A program made the position numbers and the translations under genes. From a virus: a stretch of 24,968 nt of DNA. The DNA is taken from IMG/VR virus record IMGVR_UViG_3300031840_000649, positions 1 through 24,968 of that record; one strand, 5' to 3'. The notes under the pieces are model-generated. The model had not been told where the DNA came from. It did no database searches and saw nothing but the letters and a program-made list of their open reading frames with translations. Below, piece after piece: positions 4,430 through 11,551 of the stretch. Numbering within the stretch: position 1 is the stretch's first letter; every line of letters starts with the position of its first letter.

Positions 4430-4682
4430 TATGGACCGTAATCAGATCGAAGAACACGACATCGACCCGCGCGCATGCCGGGCGCTGTGGTGTGCGGTGG
4501 TCGAAGAGCAATTCCAGTTGGCCGTTTCGCCCAAGATGGCTGATCGGCCTGCAGAAATATCCGCCGCGCGCCGTTGGTTTGGCACCCGTGATTTCTTCAT
4601 GGCCTGCGCCTTGGCTGGCGTCGATGGCGCATGGGTTCTGTGGGGCGTCCGCCATCATCTGGCTTTGCAGGGGGTGGCGTGA
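4416..4682 (+). CDS. early operon protein, 88 aa, unknown
   Basis: Start placed at the ATG at 4416, with a G-rich GGGGGT about five bases upstream; this gives a 14-bp overlap with the preceding gene. A second ATG at 4431 is a possible alternative. The protein has a Cys/Trp-rich helix ('RACRALWCAVVEEQFQLA'), then 'AARRWFGTRDFFMACALAGVDGAWVLWGVRHHLA'. This 'ARRWFGxRDFxxxCALAGxDGxWV' block is typical of small phage proteins from Rhodobacterales, from memory annotated as hypothetical. It lies directly before the repeat DNA-binding protein and shares one base with it. Confidence 0.78.
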   Translation: MTFADMDRNQIEEHDIDPRACRALWCAVVEEQFQLAVSPKMADRPAEISAARRWFGTRDFFMACALAGVDGAWVLWGVRHHLALQGVA

Positions 4683-5314
4683 TGGGCAAGCGGGTCTATC
4701 AGAACATCGAAATTCGCGGGGTGGTTTACCCTGATGCGAATGCTGCGGCGGCGGCGCTTGGCGTGACAGCTGGTCAGGTGCGCATGGCTGTGCGCAAAGA
4801 TCGGCTGGATGGTCTGGGCACCCGCCCGGCGCTGCGCCCCGTCACCATTCGCGGCGTGACCTATCCCAATTTCAGCGCCGCCGGAAAGGCGCTAGGCGTC
4901 AACCCGAACACGGTGCGCGCGGCTTATCGCAATGGCACTTTGCATCGTGTTGGCACCGGGCGTGTCGGGCCTGAGCCGATGCGGGTGCGCATCGCAGGCA
5001 AGGATTTCGATGACGTGAACGCAGCTGCGGCGCACTTTGGGGTGCAGCCCGGCACGGTCTATTCCGCGATCTGTGATGGCGATCCTGACCGGGTTGCCCG
5101 GCCTGCGGTTTATAATCCGTGGAAGTCAAAGCCCTTTACCATCGGCGGGCTGACCTTTCCGTCGATGCGCGCGGCCAGCCGTGCCTTGGGCTTCAAGGAT
5201 GAAGAATACATCGCCAAGGCGGTGAAGCGTGGGTCGCGCCGTGGGCGTGAACGCATTCTGGCTGCGGCGATGACCTATGTCGCGCAGGGCAAGCATGTCG
5301 GGGGTGCGGCATGA
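4682..5314 (+). CDS. four-repeat NUMOD/IENR1-like DNA-binding protein, 210 aa
   Basis: TGATG overlap with the upstream gene fixes the start at 4682. The protein is made almost wholly of four imperfect repeats of about 38 residues, at about 9-46, 54-91, 101-138 and 152-190. Each has the plan 'hxIxGhxYpshxAAxxALGVxxxTVxxAhxxG'. This plan matches NUMOD1/IENR1-type helix-turn-helix modules, which are usually found as one to three copies attached to homing-endonuclease nuclease domains. Here no GIY-YIG, HNH or other nuclease motif is present. The fourth repeat is the most divergent and is followed by a basic 'KRGSRRGRER' stretch. Sequence-specific DNA binding is the likely role, inferred from the module family. 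It precedes the methyltransferase gene with a four-base overlap. Confidence 0.8.
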   Translation: MGKRVYQNIEIRGVVYPDANAAAAALGVTAGQVRMAVRKDRLDGLGTRPALRPVTIRGVTYPNFSAAGKALGVNPNTVRAAYRNGTLHRVGTGRVGPEPMRVRIAGKDFDDVNAAAAHFGVQPGTVYSAICDGDPDRVARPAVYNPWKSKPFTIGGLTFPSMRAASRALGFKDEEYIAKAVKRGSRRGRERILAAAMTYVAQGKHVGGAA

Positions 5315-6117
5315 CTGGCATTCAGCGCGACATCACCATCGGAAGCTGCCGCCTAATCTTGGGCGACATGCGCGATGTGCTGCCTGCGTTGGAGTCGCGC
5401 GCCAAGCTGTGTCTGTCTGACCCGCCCTATCGCATCACGTCTGGCGGCAATAGCACAGGCGAAATGGGTGGTTGTTTCGCCAAGGATGCTTATGACAATT
5501 CCGGCGAGTTGTTCGACATGGTCGAATGGGCTGATATGGCCCCGCTTATCTATGGGGCGTTGGCCGATGACGCGGATGCCATCATCATGGCGTCAGATCG
5601 GGAAGAGGGTGCCGCCCGCGCCGCGTTCGATGCGGCTGGCTTTGGCTTTCACCGCCTGCTGGTCTGGGACAAGATCACGGCCACGCCAAACCGCTGGTAT
5701 ATGCCGAACTGCGAATTCGGGCTGTATCTCTATAAGGGCCGCGCCCGTCGCATCACCGATTGTTCTTCGAAGGCATTGATCCGCTGTCCGCAGCAGGATG
5801 TGTCGCACCTGTATTTGGGTGCAGATGTGCCACCAGATCAGCGCCGTCCGCATGCGACGGAAAAGCCGGTGGCCCTGATGGTGCATTGGATGGGCAATTC
5901 GACCGATCCGGGTGATCTGGTCATTGATCCTTTCATGGGGTCCGGGTCCACCATCGTGGCTGCAGCCCGCACGGGTCGCGCCGCCATTGGGATCGAGAAA
6001 GACCCAAAGTGGTTCGATGTTGCCTGCGCCCGTGTCGCAGAAGCGGCAGAACGCAACCAGATGGAAATGCCCGTCAGCGCGCCTGTGAGCGCCCAGCAGG
6101 AGGCTTTGGCGCTATGA
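5311..6117 (+). CDS. DNA methyltransferase, N6-adenine/N4-cytosine, beta-class, 268 aa
   Basis: Matches the N6_N4_Mtase family (PF01555 type). The catalytic motif IV Ser-Asp-Pro-Pro-Tyr is at residues 36-40 and the AdoMet-binding motif 'DPFMGSGST' at 206-214, preceded by 'HATEKP' (181-186). Motif IV before motif I is the beta-class order. No target-recognition domain of any size lies between them, typical of small phage enzymes. There is no restriction endonuclease gene alongside, so it is an orphan enzyme, probably used to protect phage DNA or regulate phage genes. The target sequence cannot be read from the protein alone. Start is coupled by ATGA to the upstream gene. Confidence 0.93.
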   Translation: MTGIQRDITIGSCRLILGDMRDVLPALESRAKLCLSDPPYRITSGGNSTGEMGGCFAKDAYDNSGELFDMVEWADMAPLIYGALADDADAIIMASDREEGAARAAFDAAGFGFHRLLVWDKITATPNRWYMPNCEFGLYLYKGRARRITDCSSKALIRCPQQDVSHLYLGADVPPDQRRPHATEKPVALMVHWMGNSTDPGDLVIDPFMGSGSTIVAAARTGRAAIGIEKDPKWFDVACARVAEAAERNQMEMPVSAPVSAQQEALAL

Positions 6118-7352: not shown

Positions 7353-7934
7353 GTGGAAGGTCAGGAACTAAGAGACGGCAAGGAACGGGTCAGGATCAAC
7401 CTGATCGAACCACTGGTCAAAGGTGGGATGGTGCGCAAGCGCGGTCAGAAGGTCGAAGAGCATGACAAGTTCTTGGCCGGTCTGGAAGCGCGGCTGGCCT
7501 ATATGGCCGAAGATCGGCTGCAGGCATTGGCGGAAGTGGTCGAGCGATACGCGGGCGGGCCGCAGAAGAACGTCTGGCCTGCCGAAGTGTCGATCATGAA
7601 CTGGGCGCGGCGGCTGCAGGAAGTGCCCGCATCTGAGTCCCGCTTGGTGCGGTCTTATCTGCAATCGGGTGCGGGTGATGCTGCCCAGTCAGGTGGCTAT
7701 CTGGTCGAACTATTCGTCTACCTGAAGCGCATCGGCGCGCCGCCCAATGATTATGCTTTGAAAGGCATACGCGAAGAGGCTGAAGACAATCGGCGCAAGC
7801 GCGCAGGGATTGAGCGTGACCGGGAAGAGGGTCGGGCCAGCCCGCGCGATCTGGCTTGGCTTCAGGGCTACATGGACACGCGGCGGCGCTGTCTGGACAT
7901 CATCAAGGCAAAACAAGAAAGGGCAGCGGCATGA
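7353..7934 (+). CDS. phage protein, 193 aa, unknown function
   Basis: Begins at a GTG (7353) with a purine-rich GAAGGGGG upstream; no in-frame ATG is available upstream, and a 15-codon open frame from the ATG at 7324 is in another frame. The product is highly charged and helical: 'EEHDKFLAGLEARLAYMAEDRLQALAEVVERYAGG' then 'KNVWPAEVSIMNWARRLQEVPASESRLVRSYLQSGAG', then a Lys/Arg/Glu-rich C-terminus. The 'NVWPxxxxIxNWARxLQ' block recurs in Rhodobacterales phage proteins that lie just before the late region. No catalytic motif is visible. It is coupled by a four-base overlap to the 252-aa gene that follows. Confidence 0.8.
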   Translation: MEGQELRDGKERVRINLIEPLVKGGMVRKRGQKVEEHDKFLAGLEARLAYMAEDRLQALAEVVERYAGGPQKNVWPAEVSIMNWARRLQEVPASESRLVRSYLQSGAGDAAQSGGYLVELFVYLKRIGAPPNDYALKGIREEAEDNRRKRAGIERDREEGRASPRDLAWLQGYMDTRRRCLDIIKAKQERAAA

Positions 7935-8689
7935 ACCGAGACAGAATAGCGATGGCGGTCACCCGCATCGAACAGGCAACCAGCATTGATGAACAGGCGC
8001 GGATGGCGGAAGTCCGAGCCATGGGTTTTGTCCCGGCAGAGGTCGGGCCGGAAATCCCGATGGCCCCGGCGCGTGGACCTGTGCGCATGCTGGATATGAT
8101 GGCGTCCTATCCCAAAGGCGATGATGACTTTGAAATGAAGGCGGCTGGCTTTCTGGGACGCAAGACGCTGCAGCGGGCGGATAGCTTTGATGTGATGGCG
8201 GCAAAGGCGGCACGCCACAAGAAGCAGTCGCCCTTCAGCCCGGCGCAGGTGGCCATGGGTCGGTTCTATCGGGATCTGGTAGAAAAGCATGAAAGCGCGG
8301 GGGTGAAGTGCTCATCGTTGGAAAGCCTGTCACAGCGCAGTGCGGGCAGTGGCAGTGACTTTATGGATGCTGTGTTGCGTGATCGGGAACGCATCACTGT
8401 GCTGCGCAAGCGCATCGGCAGCGGGTCGGCTATGGTGGTGCGGCGCATTCGTCCATCGGATCGCGGGTCGCGCGTCACCATCATGGATCGGCGGCTGGTC
8501 GACATCGTCTGTCTGGAAGATGGCACCATCACCGATGTTCTGCGCAAGCATGGTTGGGCTGTGAATGCTGATCTGGTCAAGGCCCTGAATCGTGGATTGG
8601 CTGAGGTCTTGGATCGCATGATGGGTCCGGTGCGTCGTGGTAGCGCGTCGGTCGCGCATTTCGGAACAGGTTGCCTGCCGATATTCTAG
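7931..8689 (+). CDS. phage protein, 252 aa; positional candidate for a late-gene regulator
   Basis: ATGA overlap with the upstream gene sets the start at 7931. There is no Cys cluster. The central region 'FSPAQVAMGRFYRDLVEKHESAGVKCSSLESLSQ...FMDAVLRDRERITVLRKRIGSGSAMVVRRIRPSDRGSRVTIMDRRLVDIVCLEDGTITDVLRKHGW' mixes basic helices with a small beta-rich segment. The 'TITDVLRKHGW' element could be a DNA-contacting helix. The family is known to me only as an unnamed protein of Rhodobacterales phages. It is the last gene before a promoter-terminator pair and the late operon, the place where lambda Q or RinA-type activators sit. The regulatory role is an inference from place only. Confidence 0.8.
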   Translation: MNRDRIAMAVTRIEQATSIDEQARMAEVRAMGFVPAEVGPEIPMAPARGPVRMLDMMASYPKGDDDFEMKAAGFLGRKTLQRADSFDVMAAKAARHKKQSPFSPAQVAMGRFYRDLVEKHESAGVKCSSLESLSQRSAGSGSDFMDAVLRDRERITVLRKRIGSGSAMVVRRIRPSDRGSRVTIMDRRLVDIVCLEDGTITDVLRKHGWAVNADLVKALNRGLAEVLDRMMGPVRRGSASVAHFGTGCLPIF

Positions 8690-8744: not shown

Positions 8745-8774
8745 TTGACGGTTAATCCATCAGCCCCTTATGAA
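8745..8774 (+). promoter_or_regulatory. predicted late promoter (pR'-like)
   Basis: TTGACG (8745-8750, 5 of 6) and TATGAA (8769-8774, 4 of 6) with an 18-bp spacer. An AT-rich stretch at 8727-8740 sits directly upstream, like an UP element. Predicted start near 8781 puts the terminator hairpin at about +13, an arrangement used for antitermination control. It is a prediction only. Confidence 0.5.
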
Positions 8775-8792
8775 ATATGCATCATCTACAAG

Positions 8793-8822
8793 AGCGCCCA
8801 CGGGAAACCGGCGGGCGCTTTT
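8793..8822 (+). terminator. intrinsic terminator ahead of the late operon (tR'-like)
   Basis: AGCGCCC (8793-8799) pairs with GGGCGCT (8813-8819), with an inner CGG/CCG stem closed by a GAAA tetraloop (8804-8807), and a four-T run at 8819-8822. The T-run is short, which would suit a terminator that can be overridden. It lies before the HNH gene, and no gene ends close upstream. Confidence 0.7.
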
Positions 8823-8856
8823 GCATTGGTGACTTCCGAACATCGAAAGGGACGCG

Positions 8857-9255
8857 GTGCCGAAGAAACCCTGCGCACATCCGGGCTGTTCCCGGCTGGT
8901 CGATCTTGGGTCGGCATATTGCGAAGCCCATGCGGTAGCGGACAAGCGGGACCGGGATCGGACTGCGGATGCAAAGCGGGCCGATAAGCCAAGCCGCAAA
9001 TGGTATAAGCGCAAAGCGTGGAGCGGCAAAGGTGGGCGGCGTGAACAGCAGTTGGCGAATGAACCGCTGTGCAGGCTCTGCCCTGATCATTCAAAGCAGC
9101 GGGCGACGGTTGCTGACCATGTGATTCCACATCGGGAAGACTACGCTCTGTTCTGGTTTGGGGAACTTCAGTCGCTGTGCAAGTCCTGCCACGACATCAA
9201 GAAACAGCGGGTCGAACGGCGCGCAGGTAGGGGGGGTGAAAAGTCCACAGCCTGA
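8857..9255 (+). CDS. HNH endonuclease, packaging-associated, 132 aa
   Basis: Starts at a GTG (8857) with AAGGGA upstream. It has an N-terminal Cys/His cluster (Cys6, Cys11, Cys22, His25) and an HNH core: Cys72-x2-Cys75, Asp87-His88 in 'VADHVIPH', then 'LQSLCKSCHDIKKQ' with Cys108-x2-Cys111-His112. This is the HNH nuclease that sits directly before the terminase genes in many HK97-type cos phages, where it is required together with the large terminase for DNA cleavage and packaging. First gene of the late operon. The catalytic His and metal ligands are intact. Confidence 0.92.
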   Translation: MPKKPCAHPGCSRLVDLGSAYCEAHAVADKRDRDRTADAKRADKPSRKWYKRKAWSGKGGRREQQLANEPLCRLCPDHSKQRATVADHVIPHREDYALFWFGELQSLCKSCHDIKKQRVERRAGRGGEKSTA

Positions 9256-9316: not shown

Positions 9317-9766
9317 ATGACCGCACCAGCATCAGGCATGGAACGGCTGGTCACCCTTCTGGGTGGATGGCCTGAACACTTCGAAGCGGAAGAGCGAAAG
9401 CATGGCGAAAGCCTGCTGGCTGTTCTGCGTCGTGATCGGGTTCTGGATGAAGCGGTCTTCGGTATCGTGGTTCGCTACGCTGCGCACCGCGCGGCCTATG
9501 ATCGGCTGTCGGCTGAAATCTCTGCCGAAGAATTCGAGGCCACGGCCAGCAACTACCTTTCGGGGAAAGAGCAAAGCCGGGCCTTTCACGAAAACAAGCT
9601 GCTGACGCTGGAACGCGAACTGCTGGCCACACCCTATGCGCGGGCCAAAAATGGCATGTCGGCCCAAACATCCTTCATGGATCTGCTGGACGAGCAGCCG
9701 CCGGAAGGTGGTGGCAGTGCCAAGGTGATGCCGTTCAAGCCGATGGCAAAGAAGGGTCGCGCCTGA
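9317..9766 (+). CDS. terminase small subunit, P27-like, 149 aa
   Basis: Starts at the ATG at 9317 after a G8 tract (9305-9312), a strong but unusual ribosome binding stretch. It is helical: 'AERKHGESLLAVLRRDRVLDEAVFGIVVRYAAHRAAYDRLSAEIS', then 'SNYLSGKEQSRAFHENKLLTLERELLATPYARAKNG', then a disordered tail. The order of helices, the 'TPxARxK' block and its location immediately before the large terminase match the P27-family small subunit, which recognises phage DNA and regulates packaging. The 61-bp gap before it is a candidate place for the packaging initiation site, but I cannot recognise a cos sequence. Confidence 0.85.
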   Translation: MTAPASGMERLVTLLGGWPEHFEAEERKHGESLLAVLRRDRVLDEAVFGIVVRYAAHRAAYDRLSAEISAEEFEATASNYLSGKEQSRAFHENKLLTLERELLATPYARAKNGMSAQTSFMDLLDEQPPEGGGSAKVMPFKPMAKKGRA

Positions 9767-9769
9767 TTC

Positions 9770-11551
9770 ATGCTGGACGCATCTGTCGAAACACCGATCA
9801 CGCTGCGGGCGCTGGATTGGGTCGATGACATTCTGTCGAACAAGCTGCCCAGCTGTAAGCGGATCAAGCAAGCCTGCAAACGGTTTCGGGCTGATCTGAA
9901 GCGCGCGGGCACTGACCAGTTTCCATATGTCTTCGACATGGAAGCGTCGGAACATATGTGCGCTTTCATGGAAGCCTTGCCCCATATCGAAGGGGCTTGG
10001 GCGGCGCGGAATGAGACAATCACCCTTCTGGGATGGCAGGCGTTCCTGATCAGCCAGATCGGCGGTTGGCGTCACATGGTCACTGGCATTCGGCGGTTCC
10101 GCACGGCCTATGTCGAGGTTCCGCGCAAGAATGGAAAATCGACGCTTTTGGCGGGCGTCGGTCTTTACTTTCTGGGGCCGGATGGTGAGCCGGGCGCGAA
10201 GGTCTATTCGGCTGCGGCGTCGACCCATCAGGCCCGCATCGTATTCGATGCAGCGCGCGTGATGGCGATGACAGGCCGGGCAGAAGGCATGGGGCTGGAT
10301 GAACTTCTTGGCCTGCAAGTCGAGGAACACAAGATCAAGACGGCGGACCCGGCGGCGGTGTTCCAGCCGATTGCCAGCCAGACCAAGTCGAAGGATGGCA
10401 AAAACCCGCACTGTGCGATTGTCGATGAATTGCATGAACACGAAAAGCGCGACGTGTGGGATTCGATGGCCAGCGCTTTGGGTGCCCGCGAACAGCCGTT
10501 GCTGATTGCGATCACCACGGCGGGCTACAACACTGCAGGGATCTGCTATGAACAGCGGAAATATCTGCAGCGTATTTTGGACGGCACATTCGAGGATGAC
10601 AGCTATTTCGGGCTGATCTTTGAAGCGGATGAAGGTGATGATCCGGGCGACCCGGTCGCATGGGAAAAGGCCAATCCGTCGCTGCATGCAGCCAAGTCGC
10701 TGCAATACATGCAGGACGAATGGAAGAAAGCTGCGGCCAGCCCGGCGGCAATGGGTGAGTTCCTGCGCAAGCACTTGGACATCTGGACCAGTGTCGGGGC
10801 ATCGGCCATCGATATGGAAGGCTGGCGCGCGGGCGAAGATACGTCGCTGAAGATCGAAGATTTTGCCGGGCGTCGGTGCTTTGTCGGGGTCGACCTTGCG
10901 ACACGTCATGACCCGTCAAGCGTCGTGGTTGTGTTCCCGGATGAACGCGATCCGGCCAAAGGTCCGATGACGGCATTCAGTTGGCACTGCCTGCCGCAGA
11001 GGGTCGTGGATGCGCCGGGCAATGAACATCTTTGGGGTTGGGCCAATAAGGGCCTGATCACGACAACACCGGGCGCAGAGCTGGATCTGCGATTGGTCGA
11101 AGCGTTGGTCATGCAGCTGTGTGGCCATGGCGCTGACCATGATCCGCGAAACGAATGGGGCTGGGGCGATCTGCCGGTCTTGGATGTGGAAATGGTCATC
11201 TATGATGCGCAGTTCGCGCAGCAGATGGCCGCGACTTGGGATGCGGCAGGCATTCAGGCTGTGGAACTGCGCAAGCGGGCTGCAAACACGAATGAGCCGT
11301 TCAACAAGTTGATTGCCGCTGTTGATGATCATCGGATGCTGCATGACGGCAACGCGGTTCTGACGTGGATGGCAGGCAATACGCTGCTGAAACAGGTGCC
11401 GGGCGGGGACTACATTTTCCCGACCAAACTGGCACCCGAAGACAAGATCGACGGAATCGATGCGCTGATCAACGGCTTGTGGCCGCTGTGTCAGGTTGTC
11501 GAGGAAGACGAAAGCAAGGGCGTCGTGACGCAAGGATTTGTTGATGTTTGA
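9770..11551 (+). CDS. terminase large subunit, HK97-type, 593 aa
   Basis: The packaging ATPase and nuclease. The N-terminal ATPase has Walker A 'PRKNGKST' (residues 118-125), Walker B 'CAIVDE' (215-220) with the catalytic Glu220, and the coupling motif 'ITTAG' (249-253). The C-terminal RNase H-like nuclease starts with Asp375 in 'FVGVDLATRHD', continues through 'VIYDAQFAQQM' and ends with 'DKIDGIDALI', giving the usual acidic active-site residues. The length is normal for the Terminase_1 family. It starts three bases after the small-subunit stop and overlaps the portal start by eight bases. No frameshift is seen. Confidence 0.96.
   Translation: MLDASVETPITLRALDWVDDILSNKLPSCKRIKQACKRFRADLKRAGTDQFPYVFDMEASEHMCAFMEALPHIEGAWAARNETITLLGWQAFLISQIGGWRHMVTGIRRFRTAYVEVPRKNGKSTLLAGVGLYFLGPDGEPGAKVYSAAASTHQARIVFDAARVMAMTGRAEGMGLDELLGLQVEEHKIKTADPAAVFQPIASQTKSKDGKNPHCAIVDELHEHEKRDVWDSMASALGAREQPLLIAITTAGYNTAGICYEQRKYLQRILDGTFEDDSYFGLIFEADEGDDPGDPVAWEKANPSLHAAKSLQYMQDEWKKAAASPAAMGEFLRKHLDIWTSVGASAIDMEGWRAGEDTSLKIEDFAGRRCFVGVDLATRHDPSSVVVVFPDERDPAKGPMTAFSWHCLPQRVVDAPGNEHLWGWANKGLITTTPGAELDLRLVEALVMQLCGHGADHDPRNEWGWGDLPVLDVEMVIYDAQFAQQMAATWDAAGIQAVELRKRAANTNEPFNKLIAAVDDHRMLHDGNAVLTWMAGNTLLKQVPGGDYIFPTKLAPEDKIDGIDALINGLWPLCQVVEEDESKGVVTQGFVDV

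Follow-up and report, generated by a model that had tools for sequence, protein, structure and literature searches.

A conserved promoter–hairpin unit before the late genes of alphaproteobacterial phages and a candidate antiterminator encoded upstream of it

To our knowledge, the control of late genes is understood for few non-lambdoid phages. The DNA analysed here raises the question of why a phage promoter should run almost directly into a terminator-like hairpin in front of the late genes. The window, by which we mean the whole stretch analysed, comprises the whole IMG/VR record IMGVR_UViG_3300031840_000649 (24,968 bases). It is possibly a piece of a larger phage genome, and it belongs to a phage of alphaproteobacteria. 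An earlier note on this sequence had described a promoter followed at once by an intrinsic terminator at 8745–8822 and had compared the pair with the lambda pR'/tR' switch, naming the 252-aa protein encoded just upstream as the candidate antiterminator of a new Q-like family.

The gene order is as first described. The gene of the 252-aa protein (7931–8689) ends 55 nt before the promoter. The first gene after the hairpin encodes an HNH endonuclease (8857–9255; Pfam HNH, PHROG 144), followed by the probable small terminase gene (9317–9766), assigned by a weak Terminase_4 match together with its position, and by the large terminase gene (9770–11551; TerL_nuclease/TerL_ATPase, PHROG 9) at the start of the late operon. 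All four genes and the cassette lie on the plus strand. Only 34 nt separate the T-run of the hairpin from the HNH start, which leaves scant space for another promoter. Further upstream, the early region encodes a helix-turn-helix/NUMOD1-like protein (4631–5314) and a DNA methyltransferase (5311–6117, PHROG 67).

The promoter–hairpin cassette and its conservation

The cassette opens with a -35 element, TTGACG (8745–8750). The 18-nt spacer that follows (8751–8768) has conserved columns at TTA 8752–8754, C8758, C8761 and G8763, with an information content of 1.0–1.3 bits. By analogy with QBE, ABE and ZBE, which likewise lie between -35 and -10 (PMC6606751, PMC9371919, PMC11150451), this spacer is where the 252-aa protein may bind. 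The -10 element TATGAA (8769–8774) is weak. An A at its position 2 is found in 69% of 42 sequences, and the best -10 hexamer in these sequences lies slightly above that of shuffled spacers. The -10 spacing predicts a start site at 8781, which puts the -10-like element CATCAT (8780–8785) at -1 to +5 as a candidate sigma-dependent pause element; its A, A and T are invariant in 53 of 53 aligned cassettes.

The terminator-like hairpin occupies 8789–8823, with core arms AGCGCCC (8793–8799) and GGGCGCT (8813–8819) and TTTT at 8819–8822. Its centre reads CGG-GAAA-CCG at 8801–8810, so the GAAA-capped stem of the earlier note is present. The RNA fold of 8781–8830 has an energy of -26 kcal/mol (z = -5.1), none of 200 shuffles being equally stable, and CAAG/TTTG pairing prolongs the folded stem. 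A plain consensus scan for promoters and terminators reported neither element in the cassette because position 6 of the -10 is not a T and the stem is asymmetrically bulged; such a scan is uninformative for DNA of this composition. As one sequence alone gives weak evidence, the case was built on comparison.

While blastn against the phage collection gave no match, a protein search of viral contigs followed by a profile search found the 252-aa family at 80 loci. Homologues are also encoded by Paracoccus phages Pthi1 and Psul1, Rhodobacter phage RcapNL and a phage recorded from Microcystis, where they are annotated as hypothetical and where a similar cassette follows each of them. A covariance model was built from 42 non-redundant cassettes, in which the unit after the 252-aa gene takes the form TTGAC – N30/31 – [C/T]ATnATC – hairpin. 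The model found one cassette each in 77 of the 80 related viral loci, always on the strand of the gene. The cassette of the window scored 79.9 bits (E = 4.8e-16); by chance, no more than 23.7 bits was reached in 158 control loci (80 viral and 78 genomic), which were taken from among the matches listed by two loose DNA pattern scans and are mostly chance matches. The promoter and the hairpin are thus present where they had been placed. Many of the 77 loci had fed the model, and independent tests therefore matter. Loci absent from the initial pattern search scored 37–78 bits. Among the matches listed from the DNA pattern alone, at least nine further genomic loci have true cassettes (48–80 bits), with the 252-aa gene upstream in six of the nine; two have different genes upstream (L180, L210), and the sequence of the last (L249) ends too early. 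The promoter–hairpin unit is widespread in related phages and bears no annotation in the records examined.

The spacing within the unit is nearly constant. TTGAC opens all 77 model matches, and 49 or 50 nt separate TTGAC from the hairpin arm in 72 of the 73 matches with a readable arm motif. The distance from the stop codon of the gene to TTGAC is between -34 and +67 in most loci, mostly right at the stop codon, and 315 to 3,315 nt in sixteen loci; three values below -100 arise where the reading frame has internal stops and really ends earlier. Inserted DNA always lies between gene and promoter and never between promoter and hairpin. No variation is seen in the 53-sequence alignment at TTGAC, at the A, A, T and C of [C/T]ATnATC or in the middle of the hairpin arms.

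Covariation is evident in the stem. Of the cells in the same alignment, 87% form pairs; both sides differ in 43 cells, whereas shuffled versions give 21.5 and none of 500 attains the observed count. This alignment had been fitted to the covariance model; a MAFFT alignment agrees (29 against 15.9). In divergent loci such as L341 and L379 both hairpin arms are altered together. The short T-run of the earlier note is found in the window, but four relatives (L355, L357, L373, L374) keep the hairpin with no T-run after the stem, so intrinsic termination is doubtful there. Their hairpins may terminate inefficiently or have another role, such as loading. Taken at the level of sequence, a gene followed by a conserved unit of fixed spacing with a covarying hairpin is established.

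The 252-aa protein and other occupants of its position

The 252-aa family matched no Pfam, PHROG or NCBIfam model, including the Q and AlpA family models, and it has no NusG domain. An hhalign comparison with GafA-type proteins encoded in alphaproteobacterial genomes showed a remote similarity of residues 100–232 to their DUF6456 region (P = 4.4e-6, score 48.9). The best of 100 column shuffles reached a score of 18 (P = 0.12) and unrelated families from the same loci at most 16.5; the result is that of one pairwise profile–profile test. The Pfam DUF6456 model (PF20057) gave no match at E <= 10 among 16 family members, and in two phage genomes with homologues it matched nothing. No DUF6456 gene was found to share a contig with terminase in the cellular genomes searched. 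We consider the 252-aa protein to be probably a distant relative of the DUF6456/GafA–GafZ group, to which its C-terminal half is remotely similar. The new family proposed earlier stands to the extent that no existing model recognises it, but it is probably not wholly new. Since the family models did not match, the cassette and its protein are not placed in the Q, AlpA or DUF6456 families.

Structure prediction is suggestive only as regards the fold. An AlphaFold (AF2) model from 53 sequences has a pLDDT of 83. A DUF6456 phage protein ranks third in a search of BFVD (probability 0.98, E = 0.0075, TM about 0.3), sigma factors appear among the weak rows of VIA-align (Z about 5, a value that noise also reaches), and Foldseek gave no significant match in the PDB. 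The top BFVD match is RCRHEA_44 of phage RcRhea (L394, 34728–35246; 172 aa), encoded near the linear genome end that adjoins the late genes on circularisation. It was considered as a DUF6456 protein and rejected, being recognised neither by Pfam nor by hhalign. The DNA after it (35250–35375) has a promoter-like sequence with TTGACT and may form a hairpin, with no covariance model match.

The position before the HNH gene is occupied by other proteins in phages with a related HNH gene. Two loci (L030 3097–3771, L037 3186–3788) encode NusG/RfaH-type proteins there, assigned to PHROG 6386 "transcription antiterminator". These share the place before HNH and terminase with the 252-aa protein, but their family is unrelated to it. 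Antiterminators of this type are exemplified by the phiLM21 group, and in phage phiLM21 an antiterminator and HNH likewise precede terminase (PMC12429752). A second, unrelated occupant is the phrog_9306 family (L031, L038, L395–L419), whose stop codon is directly followed by a conserved promoter–hairpin of its own with a different signature, CCCCCCCTAGACA. A C-tract and CTAGACA mark that signature (L395–L419, L031, L038, L034). A slot for late antitermination would be expected to hold proteins of unrelated families before similar promoter–hairpin units, and this is the pattern here, with a known type of antiterminator among the occupants.

The gap between the 252-aa gene and the cassette also takes up cargo. 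Lower-GC DNA of 0.3–3.3 kb lies there in L311, L314, L321, L323, L325, L327, L330–L333, L336, L337, L339 and L368. The genes carried include Septu PtuA/PtuB (L325), a C5 methylase with an NgoMIV-type restriction enzyme (L327), a dCTP-deaminase-type defence protein (L339) and an SLFN/NB-ARC protein (L331), and the gap looks like a prophage defence hotspot. In three loci a large gene stands directly upstream of the cassette in place of the 252-aa gene (L210 7–2232, L027 2534–3742, L026 1812–3695); these genes are probably further cargo.

A candidate late-gene switch and its alternatives

The arrangement resembles lambda Q with pR'/tR' (and 21Q) in having the regulator gene directly upstream, TTGAC as the -35 and a terminator before the late genes, as well as a region between -35 and -10 that binds the regulator in lambda and is the candidate for it here. 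The distance from TTGACT to the AACGAT pause element of lambda pR' (J02459) is 35 nt, and TTGAC stands 35 nt from the -10-like element in 31 of 42 cassettes and 36 nt in nine. Two differences are that the 252-aa protein has no sequence similarity to Q families and that the hairpin begins about 12 nt after the predicted start. The lambda tR' terminator is far more distant from its start than that, and we counted the short leader before the stem against a switch. In the AlpA promoter of Pseudomonas aeruginosa, a -10-like CACGAT lies at -1 to +5 and requires A(+1) and T(+5) (PMC9371919); with a start at 8781, CATCAT falls at the same place and its A(+1) and T(+5) are invariant. AlpA also has an element between -10 and -35, a candidate one here, and a terminator downstream (PMC9371919), but its protein sequence is unrelated and its binding sequence is another.

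GafZ of Caulobacter, a protein of the DUF6456 group, is homologous to the C-terminal part of GafA and spreads with RNA polymerase and NusA/E/G over the gene transfer agent (GTA) cluster; terminators are bypassed with GafZ, and an element between -10 and -35 is needed (PMC11150451). Besides the remote profile similarity over the DUF6456 region, the two systems have in common alphaproteobacterial hosts and terminase and capsid gene clusters as targets, known for the antiterminating GafZ and candidate here. The differences are that the Pfam model misses the 252-aa protein, that its N-terminal half differs and that the promoter here has a strong -35. The palindrome of GafZ lies between -10 and -35, whereas here a GCGCCC..GGGCGC palindrome lies after the start and forms the hairpin. 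The Caulobacter GTA terminator follows the first cluster gene, unlike the hairpin here. A paper on BaGTA (Korotaev, Niggli and Dehio, eLife 2025, RP105142; cited in PMC13236601) deals, to judge from its title, with antitermination in a phage-derived gene transfer agent of alphaproteobacteria, and a relative may already have been described there.

A Q-like late-gene switch with the 252-aa protein as antiterminator is the best reading of these features, and we regard it as likely. It is supported by the conserved unit, the fixed spacing and the covarying hairpin, by the element in the lambda and AlpA position, by the remote similarity to GafZ and by the NusG-type protein in the same slot. The comparison with pR'/tR' drawn from the single sequence therefore holds as a candidate.

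Because GafA is described as an activator acting via the omega subunit (PMC9638019), a model of activation only was retained as a rival. The 252-aa protein would recruit polymerase to the poor -10 in the manner of GafA, and the hairpin, never overridden, would be a stabilising 5' stem or an insulator. The weak -10 and the relatives with no T-run agree with this, but a stabilising stem accounts neither for the constant spacing nor for a -10-like element fixed at -1 to +5, GafZ, a DUF6456 protein assayed for antitermination, does antiterminate (PMC11150451), and a NusG-type protein occupies the same slot. We consider activation alone unlikely.

A good deal less probable is that the hairpin merely ends the early operon and that the promoter is unrelated to it and constitutive. 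Its position where early genes give way to late ones would suit such a role, yet it always lies at a fixed distance downstream of the promoter, cargo enters between gene and promoter and never between promoter and hairpin, and a terminator of the early operon placed there would block its own promoter.

It is also conceivable, at still longer odds, that CATCAT is the true -10 and TTGAC an activator site, so that transcription would begin at the hairpin as a mere 5'-terminal stem. CATCAT is indeed closer to TATAAT than the proposed -10 is (a mean of 3.2 against 2.1 matches). The spacing of 29–30 nt between TTGAC and CATCAT suits no sigma-70 promoter, however, and equals the distance from the -35 to the pause element in lambda. 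The variant cassette of L031, moreover, has no CATCAT but has CATAAT at the 18-nt position, that of the -10, which supports the proposed -10 placement. Hardly credible is a packaging (cos/pac) site read as DNA, for although the cassette adjoins the HNH and terminase genes, the annotated cohesive end of RcapNL (1–26) precedes the gene of the 252-aa homologue and is well removed from the cassette, which is at 915, and promoter-type motifs and stem covariation with a variable loop length fit RNA.

For the Q-like switch we infer the following course. RNA polymerase would start at about 8781 from the strong -35/weak -10 promoter, and sigma region 2 would rebind CATCAT at -1 to +5, causing the polymerase to pause. 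Without the 252-aa protein, the polymerase would proceed and mostly halt at the hairpin, giving an RNA of about 42 nt. Production of the 252-aa protein from the end of the early operon would change this: its C-terminal half, probably sigma-4-like, would bind the spacer between -35 and -10 and load on the paused polymerase. The loaded polymerase would then ignore the hairpin and transcribe HNH, terminase and the virion genes. The 252-aa system most likely works like those of Q, AlpA and GafZ.

We also propose, tentatively and as rather improbable, that one element, the hairpin, could both terminate transcription and contribute to the site at which the 252-aa protein is loaded. This is suggested because the 5' arm, about 12 nt after the predicted start, would be synthesised during the sigma-dependent pause, and because some relatives keep the hairpin despite losing the T-run. 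Such a cis arrangement is not described in the literature cited here on Q, AlpA and GafZ.

If the proposed switch is true, a single compact unit would explain late regulation across many alphaproteobacterial temperate phages. An unannotated protein family would gain a function, the GafA/GafZ regulators of gene transfer agents would be tied to working phage switches, and easily cloned promoter–terminator cassettes would become available. In the slot itself, proteins of unrelated families replace each other, a known kind of antiterminator among them, and a cargo site beside it is used by anti-phage defence genes.
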